Positions 42,349 through 44,505 of a stretch of DNA of 64,000 nt are shown here, in pieces. The DNA comes from an uncultured Planctomycetota bacterium (GTDB lineage Bacteria; Planctomycetota; Phycisphaerae; UBA1845; Fen-1342). The DNA lies in contig CAADGL010000012.1 in NCBI GenBank assembly GCA_900696525.1, forward strand, positions 62,001 through 126,000, given 5' to 3'. A program made the translations under genes and the position numbers. The notes beneath the pieces were generated by a model, which saw nothing but the letters and a program-made list of their open reading frames with translations, did not search any database and was not told the origin of the DNA. Numbering within the stretch: the first letter of the stretch is position 1; each line of letters opens with the position of its first letter.

Positions 42349-44505
42349 TCACGGCGCGCCGGCGCTCGCGGCTCGGACGATCGGCCCCCACAGGCGCTGG
42401 TGCAGCTCGGCGGCGGACGCCCCCTGCAACTCCACCGCGCTGATGAAGCCGCGCCCGGCGCGGCCGAGGTGCGCCGCGGCAGTCGTCAGGCTGTCGGCGA
42501 CGCCGCGCGGGACAAAGGCGGGCGCCGGATGCCGCGCCGCGCGGTCGAGCGCCCAGGCGCGGACGCGGGCGGTCTCGGCGACGTCGCGGCGAAGCGATTC
42601 GAGCGCGAGGCCGGCGGCGCCGATGACGACGGCGGTGCGCACATGCGGATCGTCGCCGAGCACGAGCAGCCCGTTCATGAGTTCGCGCGCCTGGCGGAGA
42701 CGTTCGCAACGATGGATCAGCGCCTCGACGGCGACCCGCAGGTCTTCGTCCTGCGGCAACGGCCATTGCCCCGCCGCGTCGAGCGCTGCGGCTTCGAGCG
42801 AGACCGCGCCGGACAGGACGGCGCGGCGCAGCGCGAGGCGGCGCTCGTATTCGACGGGGGAGACGCGCCCGGCGCACGGACCGGCACATGCGCCGGCGAA
42901 GTACCGCTCGCACAACTGCGCGCCGCCGGCCAGCCGCGGGGCCGTTGCCTCCTGCGGGCACAGAGCCGTGCCGATCCACGAGGCCAGGGTTTCGATCGCG
43001 TCGCGCGCCTGCCAGCGGCTTCGAAACGGACCGTGGCACGCTGCGCCGCCGCCGGCGTCCTCGCAGATGTCGAGCTGGCCAAAGGCGCGGCCGGATTCCA
43101 CCACGTAGCAGTAGCGCCGCCAGTGGCGCATCTGCTGGTTGAATGGCGGCCGAAGGCGGCGCACGAGCTCGGCCTCCACCAGCAGGGCTTCGAGCTCGTG
43201 CGCCGCGGGGCGCATCTGCATGCGCGCCACCTGCGCCGTCCACGCCGCGGTGCTCGTCGGCCGGCTGCGCAGGTGCGCGCGGACGCGGGCCCGGACGTTG
43301 AGCGCCTTGCCGACGTACAGCAGGCGGCCGCCGTCGTCGAGCAACGCATAGGTGCCACACGACGCCGGAAGCTCGCCGACGCGCTCGCGCGTTACGGCGA
43401 CGGCGACCGGCGGCGGCGCGTCCAGCACCGAGAAGACCCCGCCCGGCGAATCGGTCAGCCCGGGACTGCGCCGAAGCTCGTCGGCCTCGCGCTCGGGCAC
43501 CCACTCGACGCCGTTCCACGACGTGTGGACCATCAGGTCGGGGCGCATGCGCGCGATGCGCCCCGCCAGGCGGACGTCTCGCAGGGCGTGGCGCGTGACC
43601 TGGCCGGTGAGCCGCAGCGCGACGACCGCGCCGTGCGGCGCCGCCGCGAGCCGCTCGTGCACCGCCTGCGGCAGCGTGCGGGCGGTGTGGCCGCCCACGT
43701 CGATGGCGACGTTGCACATCGGCCGCACCTCGTGCTCGATGAAGCGCGGGTCTGCGCGGCCGTCGGCGAAGGTGACCAGCACGCAGCCCTTCGGCTCGTC
43801 GATCTCCGCGAAGCTGATGCGGTCGGGCGAGCCGGCGTAGACGACCGGCGGGCCCCCGGGCAACCCGCCGCGCAGCACCTGGTGACGATGGACGTGGCCG
43901 GCGGCGACGTAGTGGAACTCGCCGGGTACGGCCTCGGCGTCGATCACGTCGTCGCCGCCGCGGAAGACATAGTCCGCCGGTCCGCAGCGTGCCCCGCGGA
44001 ACGTCTGGTGCACGGCGAGGATGTGCACCTCGGCGCGGGTCCGTGACCAGCCGGTGGCCCGGAGGTTGTCGTCAAACTGGGCGGCGGCGCCGCGACGCAC
44101 GCAGGGAAAGCCTGACACCGCGACGCGCACGCCGCGGCAGTTCAGCAGCACGGTTCGAGGCTCCGCCATGATGTGGATGTTCTCATGCGCAAGCCACAGA
44201 CACGCCGGCAGCGCCGAGCGCTCGTGATTGCCCGGAACGATCACGACCGGCACGCCCTCCTGCGCCAGTCGCAACAGCGGCTGGCAGGCCTCGGCGACGT
44301 GCGCCTGCGTCGGTCGCGGATGGTCGAACAGGTCGCCGGCGTGGATCACGAGGTCGACGTTGTGCTCTCGGGCGCGCTCGACCACGCGCTGGTACGCCCG
44401 CGCGAAATCATCGCCGCGATACGGCCGCGCGTCGCGCGCCGGCCTTCGGCGCGGCCAGCCGGCTCCGATGTGCGTGTCCGCGATGTGCAGCAGCCGCACG
44501 GCCAT
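42349..44505 (-). CDS. SbcD/Mre11-type metallophosphoesterase fused to GIY-YIG (UvrC N-terminal/Cho-like) endonuclease
   Basis: MPE: LLHIADTHIG, LVIHAGDLFDHPRPT, VIVPGNHERS, AAGHVHRHQVL. GIY-YIG: ELPASCGTYALLDDGGRLLYVGKALNVRARVRAHL...HELEALLVEAELVRRLRPPFNQQ; UvrC-like LCERYFAGACAGPCAGRVSPVEYERRL. Single 718-aa ORF. Confidence 0.85.
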   Translation of the reverse strand: MAVRLLHIADTHIGAGWPRRRPARDARPYRGDDFARAYQRVVERAREHNVDLVIHAGDLFDHPRPTQAHVAEACQPLLRLAQEGVPVVIVPGNHERSALPACLWLAHENIHIMAEPRTVLLNCRGVRVAVSGFPCVRRGAAAQFDDNLRATGWSRTRAEVHILAVHQTFRGARCGPADYVFRGGDDVIDAEAVPGEFHYVAAGHVHRHQVLRGGLPGGPPVVYAGSPDRISFAEIDEPKGCVLVTFADGRADPRFIEHEVRPMCNVAIDVGGHTARTLPQAVHERLAAAPHGAVVALRLTGQVTRHALRDVRLAGRIARMRPDLMVHTSWNGVEWVPEREADELRRSPGLTDSPGGVFSVLDAPPPVAVAVTRERVGELPASCGTYALLDDGGRLLYVGKALNVRARVRAHLRSRPTSTAAWTAQVARMQMRPAAHELEALLVEAELVRRLRPPFNQQMRHWRRYCYVVESGRAFGQLDICEDAGGGAACHGPFRSRWQARDAIETLASWIGTALCPQEATAPRLAGGAQLCERYFAGACAGPCAGRVSPVEYERRLALRRAVLSGAVSLEAAALDAAGQWPLPQDEDLRVAVEALIHRCERLRQARELMNGLLVLGDDPHVRTAVVIGAAGLALESLRRDVAETARVRAWALDRAARHPAPAFVPRGVADSLTTAAAHLGRAGRGFISAVELQGASAAELHQRLWGPIVRAASAGAP

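Follow-up and report, generated by a model that had tools for sequence, protein, structure and literature searches.

One gene of an uncultured Planctomycetota bacterium is predicted to hold two complete nucleases in a single folded chain: an Mre11/SbcD-type nuclease with its capping domain, and a Cho-like GIY-YIG nuclease. It occupies 42349..44505 on the minus strand of the window, a stretch of 64,000 nucleotides (GenBank assembly GCA_900696525.1, contig CAADGL010000012.1, positions 62,001 to 126,000), and encodes 718 amino acids plus a stop codon, as supported by the open reading frame, its homologues and an AlphaFold model. From sequence, structural models and analogy with known enzymes, the fusion is, on a modest balance of probability, an excision-repair enzyme in which a Cho-like incision is coupled with removal of the strand by an Mre11-type nuclease.

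In each group of the two families, whether fused, tandem or convergent, both halves keep their catalytic residues. Because these residues are invariant and the models are confident, both halves are read as intact nuclease sites. With the alignment of 53 fusions (A1), AlphaFold modelled the whole chain at a mean predicted local distance difference test score (pLDDT) of 89.5 and a predicted template modelling score of 0.87 (model m1f0700fd22c9); the C-terminal half modelled alone reached a pLDDT of 86.4. The initial annotation of this DNA had proposed that both domains lie in one chain, and profiles and fold agree. The junction, where two separate genes might have met, was modelled as a linker with two short helices at residues ~337-367 (pLDDT 78-84).

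Authenticity and spread of the fusion gene

No internal stop interrupts the minus-strand frame, so that the uninterrupted 718-residue chain first described from the letters is sustained, and homologous full-length fusions occur in independent assemblies. A protein search returned 822 relatives, of which the best 120 were mostly 540-830 amino acids long and spanned both domains. One full-length homologue, from other assemblies, is 85% identical; more than 100 further homologues were found besides it, and where the source is named, it is mostly Phycisphaerae or another member of Planctomycetota. When the same architecture was sought in other genomes, full-length fusions were found in many assemblies. 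A frameshift or missed stop is thus excluded in practice, and an assembly chimera was ruled out on the same evidence. Among 61 genomes (the host's own and 60 relatives), 11 besides the host carry the fusion, either whole or as a fragment.

Viral contigs and plasmids gave no full-length match to the fusion, only distant phosphoesterases, and a mobile or viral origin was ruled out on that ground. A defence system was likewise rejected, the PADLOC matches being weak. A scan of the flanks of the fusion gene with Rfam returned nothing.

Phosphoesterase half

Residues 1-247 (43765..44505, minus strand) form the metallophosphoesterase nuclease domain, identified by profiles, by fold and by D10, H12, D58, N93, H94, H166, H204 and H206. 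All of the phosphoesterase motifs (D-x-H, GD, GNH, H and GHxH) are present, and all eight active-site residues align with those of E. coli SbcD. In the 53 aligned fusions, G57, D58, G92, N93, H94, H166, H204 and H206 are invariant, and D10 and H12 are kept in more than 90%. The motifs noted in the initial annotation are therefore borne out, and all, or almost all, relatives share the active-site residues. Foldseek alignments and secondary structure place an Mre11-type capping domain at residues ~248-336 (43498..43764, minus strand). It is followed by the linker, residues ~337-367 (43405..43497, minus strand), in which the consensus motif S-x-F-x-x-L-D-A-P recurs across the fusion family.

The profile matches of this half are to Pfam Metallophos (59 bits) and to the NCBIfam models Mre11_Sulfo (2.2e-26) and sbcd (TIGR00619; 8.9e-20); on the latter it scores 71.5 bits, under the cut-off of 77.65. 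Mre11 and SbcD chains in the PDB are matched at 1e-14 by sequence. The fold is that of the Mre11/SbcD nuclease-plus-cap (E 1e-20), in Foldseek alignments of ~340-370 columns. In the tree, the subfamily forms a long branch apart from both E. coli SbcD and the host's other SbcD-like protein; the branch measures 4.85, a length at which placement is unsure. Judged by sequence, the subfamily is far from the SbcD proteins that partner SbcC.

GIY-YIG half and C-terminus

The GIY-YIG nuclease domain covers residues ~368-462 (43120..43404, minus strand) and is marked by Y386, Y397, R407, H411, E444 and N456 and by matches to the UvrC GIY-YIG structure 1yd6. The family profile matches this structure at E 7.1e-17, and the model of the C-terminal half matches solved UvrC GIY-YIG domains with template modelling scores of about 0.8-0.86 of the target, those for the 1yd6 chains being 0.81-0.86. 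Y386, Y397, G399, R407, H411, E444 and N456 are invariant in the 53 fusions and align with E. coli UvrC and Cho, position 411 being Tyr or His. The Pfam GIY-YIG match of the window's member is sub-threshold at 16 bits; 51 of the 53 fusions match. Both the UvrC model (5e-22) and the Cho model (1e-20) detect the half. The best NCBIfam model, at 3e-25, is PRK07883 of the DEDD-exonuclease/Cho family, the match being limited to the Cho part (205-399 of 563). The Cho model PRK10545 gives 74 bits, where its cut-off is 367, and covers residues 373-558 only.

Four cysteines (C516, C532, C540 and C544; 42874..42960, minus strand), the last three spaced C-x7-C-x3-C, are found in at least 90% of the fusions, and in the alignment their positions coincide with the cysteines of UvrC and Cho from E. 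coli. UvrC has been reported with a 4Fe-4S cofactor near the GIY-YIG domain, according to passages in PMC8837605 and PMC9426483 that cite Silva et al. 2020. By its sequence, the four-Cys segment is a possible 4Fe-4S site. The C-terminal domain, residues ~549-718 (42352..42861, minus strand), is modelled as helical with one beta-hairpin. These ~170 residues have no Pfam match, and the solved-structure hits align to the GIY-YIG part only.

Pfam detected neither the UVR motif nor the RNase H-like domain of UvrC in any of the 53 Planctomycetota fusions, and for this reason the C-terminal half is called Cho-like rather than UvrC. The GIY-YIG core and cysteine segment described at the outset were recovered, with Y386, Y397, R407, E444 and N456 in all or nearly all relatives; of the label 'UvrC/Cho-like', the second part stands and the first does not.

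Two shortened variants and one remnant deserve mention beside these domains. The fusions at L041:7929-9464 and L042:7089-8552, of ~500 amino acids, stop directly after the GIY-YIG domain. On a Phycisphaerales chromosome (L110:7980-8735), a phosphoesterase-half remnant of 252 amino acids has no GIY-YIG half nearby and appears to be either a degraded copy or the result of a frame error. In the window itself, an open reading frame of 184 amino acids (44408-44962, minus strand) shares ~98 bases with the 5' end of the fusion gene; its match to an ASCH domain is weak (18.1 bits, cut-off 21.2).

Linkage of the two families across phyla

Phosphoesterase loci were found by a motif scan of species genomes, the best-scoring 80 of 228 were kept, and partners were classed with profiles of each half. 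Among these 80 loci, 11 were fused and 43 had no GIY-YIG gene nearby; in the others the GIY-YIG gene lay directly downstream (11), directly upstream (11) or next door in convergent orientation (4). The GIY-YIG gene immediately adjoins the phosphoesterase gene in 26 of the 69 non-fused loci, although the choice of the best 80 may overstate the linked fraction. About 0.1 adjoining genes in 69 would be expected by chance (our own estimate, from roughly two GIY-YIG genes per genome), and by this estimate the linkage is far above chance. The linked junctions mostly overlap or lie within about 150 bp, and the other neighbours, compared by gene clusters and Pfam, differ between loci. An SbcC-like gene was not among the conserved neighbours of the phosphoesterase loci.

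Linked but non-fused loci were found in Latescibacterota, Neomarinimicrobiota, Gemmatimonadota, WOR-3, Aminicenantes, Myxococcota, Thermodesulfobacteriota, KSB1 and Pseudomonadota, and fusions among the 80 loci in Planctomycetota and Calditrichota; fusion or adjacency spans about ten phyla. Partners encoded upstream belong to the PRK07883 type of DEDD-exonuclease/Cho protein, and the downstream partners are GIY-YIG proteins of ~330-350 amino acids. The UVR motif was matched by tandem GIY-YIG partners and also by the Calditrichota fusion; a single match, in a downstream partner, exceeds the Pfam cut-off, and two fall short of it. The pairing may also exist without linkage: in one Acidobacteriota genome (that of locus L080; G281:C1:4159549), an unlinked frame of 587 amino acids, the size of the DEDD-Cho proteins, matches the UvrC N-terminus and lies far from the phosphoesterase gene.

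In WOR-3 and Aminicenantes, the two families stand in a three-gene operon, in which an XPD-like helicase is followed by a DEDD-exonuclease/Cho protein and then by the SbcD-like phosphoesterase (L046:4896-10114; L048:498-5599; L050:5026-10147; L053:1871-7046; identified by Pfam domains). In all four, the helicase lies directly upstream and carries DEAD_2, HBB and Helicase_C_2 domains together with a PD-(D/E)XK match. At the junctions, the genes overlap or are separated by no more than a few tens of bases.

The GIY-YIG tree places the Planctomycetota fusions near Cho (support 93/89), E. coli Cho being a long branch. The tandem and convergent partners form a second clade (100/98), with the Calditrichota fusion L043 inside it, and the DEDD-Cho partners a third (100/99). 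A single clade of all fusions is disfavoured (approximately unbiased test, p 0.017); a single clade of all linked GIY-YIG genes is not rejected (p 0.12). The sequences suggest that the Calditrichota fusion is probably independent of those in Planctomycetota, so that there are three arrangements and probably two separate fusion events. Three independent pairings are not claimed, because a single origin of the linked GIY-YIG genes is not rejected.

Other repair genes of the host

The host has a second SbcD-like phosphoesterase, of 378 amino acids, whose gene overlaps that of a Rad50-like ATPase of 903 amino acids (L113:3786-7624, equal to G000:C12 at about 701.8-705.6 kb). This second phosphoesterase has Q and D at two of the active-site His positions, and with the Rad50-like gene it forms a divergent SbcCD-type pair. 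UvrA, a canonical UvrC and an Mfd-like protein (a frame of 1195 amino acids) are also carried apart from the fusion. A frame of 1800 amino acids (G000:C11:152506-156942) contains at least two UvrA-like units, one after the other, and looks like a double-length UvrA; two more UvrA-like genes lie on the host's C12. With a separate SbcD-like protein and a separate UvrC, the fusion is therefore not the host's only protein of either kind.

No UvrB over the curated cut-off was found in the host's 93%-complete assembly. UvrB sequence, whole, split or partial, is present in 20 of 21 other genomes, including all 11 with a fusion or fragment, and the gap in the host is therefore probably an assembly gap. 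The absence of UvrB as a cause of the fusion was ruled out, since all of those 11 genomes have UvrB sequence.

These genes bear on two statements of the initial annotation. That no SbcC, UvrA or UvrB is in view holds for the window; genome-wide it fails for a Rad50-like ATPase and for UvrA, both of which lie elsewhere. A genome search for sbcC, uvrC and sbcD recovered the Rad50-like and SbcD-like pair and the canonical UvrC. The idea that the phosphoesterase half serves as a partner of SbcC/Rad50 finds no support, given its distant branch, the failure to see an adjoining SbcC gene and the separate pair that the host keeps.

Proposed function and alternatives

Cho and the N-terminus of UvrC nick the 3' side of a lesion. 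In the proposed excision-repair enzyme, the GIY-YIG half would nick the damaged strand 3' of the lesion, and the metal-dependent phosphoesterase half would degrade or trim the nicked strand from the incised end, leaving a gap for polymerase. It would thereby take the part that has been suggested for the DEDD exonuclease of known exonuclease/Cho fusions. As a chromosomal repair factor, it would work alongside UvrABC and independently of SbcC/Rad50. Incision and processing are supported because the same two families repeatedly adjoin or fuse and stand in operons with XPD-like helicases. Of the bifunctional enzyme first suggested from the sequence, the two intact sites are upheld by the invariant residues and the models, and the coupling of their roles is supported by adjacency, fusion and the helicase operons.

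Several observations weigh against this proposal. The exonuclease activity and its polarity are extrapolated from distant Mre11/SbcD enzymes. The lack of UVR motifs leaves recruitment of the Planctomycetota fusions by UvrB unsupported by motif. The cysteine cluster is missing in some fusions, and the short L041 and L042 proteins lack both the Cys segment and the C-terminal domain. The fusion is patchy, being present in 6 of 250 genomes sampled from the host's class when called at E below 1e-60. Finally, among the 43 phosphoesterase loci lacking a nearby GIY-YIG gene, 28 are flanked on each side by 1.5 kb of sequence or more; a linked partner is therefore not required for the phosphoesterase to act.

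Hairpins and blocked ends are established substrates of Mre11/SbcD enzymes, and the N-terminal half has the Mre11 fold with its cap. It might accordingly be a 3'-end cleaner or a structure-specific endonuclease for hairpins, branches or protein-bound ends, with the GIY-YIG half cutting such structures, in the processing of breaks, crosslinks or forks rather than in lesion excision. The missing UVR motif of the Planctomycetota fusions and the failure to find UvrB in the host assembly fit this idea. It is nevertheless rather unlikely: the C-terminal half is specifically UvrC/Cho-like, down to the four cysteines, tandem partners have a UVR motif, which in one of them passes the Pfam cut-off, and the other genomes with the fusion do contain UvrB, the host's gap being probably one of assembly. 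It is distinctly improbable that the pairing is incidental, neighbouring housekeeping nucleases having fused without coupling, or that the unit defends against foreign DNA. The patchy distribution, the unlinked loci and a weak PADLOC match speak for such a reading; the three adjacency arrangements, a fusion that probably arose twice, the invariant active sites and the lack of a full-length match on plasmids or viral contigs speak against it.

A variant SbcCD complex, in which the fusion partners SbcC/Rad50 and the GIY-YIG domain is an added accessory, is very improbable. Matches to the SbcD/Mre11 models and the source annotation of several relatives as 'exonuclease SbcD' agree with it, but the branch is far from E. 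coli SbcD (though of unsure placement) and SbcC-like conserved neighbours are absent. As to the Rad50-binding helices at the C-terminus of SbcD/Mre11, the tail after the cap is short in most standalone relatives, with a median of 8 residues, though these align poorly with E. coli SbcD in that region, and the linker of the fusion is modelled with two short helices. An SbcC partner for the fusion was sought in the host and rejected, as its Rad50-like gene overlaps a different SbcD-like gene.

If the excision-repair proposal is extended to the linked loci, a tentative and somewhat doubtful picture is that of an undescribed excision-repair route in about ten phyla. Its core would be a Cho-like GIY-YIG nuclease and a Rad50-free Mre11-like nuclease, fused in Planctomycetota and joined in the WOR-3/Aminicenantes operon by the XPD-like PD-(D/E)XK helicase, as a helicase-incision-exonuclease machine parallel to UvrABC. 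Mre11 and SbcD have been studied almost entirely as partners of Rad50 and SbcC. If true, a widespread subfamily with a UvrC/Cho-type nuclease as its recurring partner would bring Mre11-family enzymes into excision repair, and would also raise the questions of whether an Mre11-like enzyme processes the strand after a GIY-YIG cut, and whether the 5' incision of UvrC and UvrD are bypassed.

Comparison with known systems

Neither the fusion nor the gene pair was described in the literature searched; the nearest architecture is Cho+Exo (PMC1564403). UvrC shares the GIY-YIG domain and the four-Cys segment, whereas the 53 fusions lack its RNase H-like 5'-incision domain and its UVR motif, and the host has a UvrC of its own. 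E. coli Cho shares the residues of the GIY-YIG active site, among them a His where UvrC has Tyr43, and the four cysteines, and it too has no RNase H-like domain; however, Cho is a single nuclease of 295 amino acids, and the fusion falls under the Cho-model cut-off (74 versus 367 bits). With SbcD/Mre11 the fusion has in common the eight active-site residues and the nuclease-plus-cap fold, but it scores below the SbcD cut-off, lies on a distant branch, is tied to GIY-YIG nucleases and lacks an SbcC partner gene.

The fusion of an exonuclease to Cho is known, and the exonuclease is proposed to start its digestion at the incision (PMC1564403). In these Cho+Exo or Cho-like+Exo proteins (DEDD/ExoIII exonuclease with Cho; PRK07883; mycobacteria, other Actinobacteria and Betaproteobacteria), the exonuclease is likewise N-terminal to the GIY-YIG domain and C4 segment (PMC1564403). 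They differ in that their exonuclease has a DEDD/RNase T fold, while the N-terminal half of the present fusion is an Mre11/SbcD metallophosphoesterase. The two systems meet in some phyla, where a DEDD-Cho gene is followed by the phosphoesterase gene in one operon. From these sequence comparisons, the fusion appears to vary the exonuclease/Cho theme in a new way, and there is evidence that a wider repair unit of two nucleases exists.
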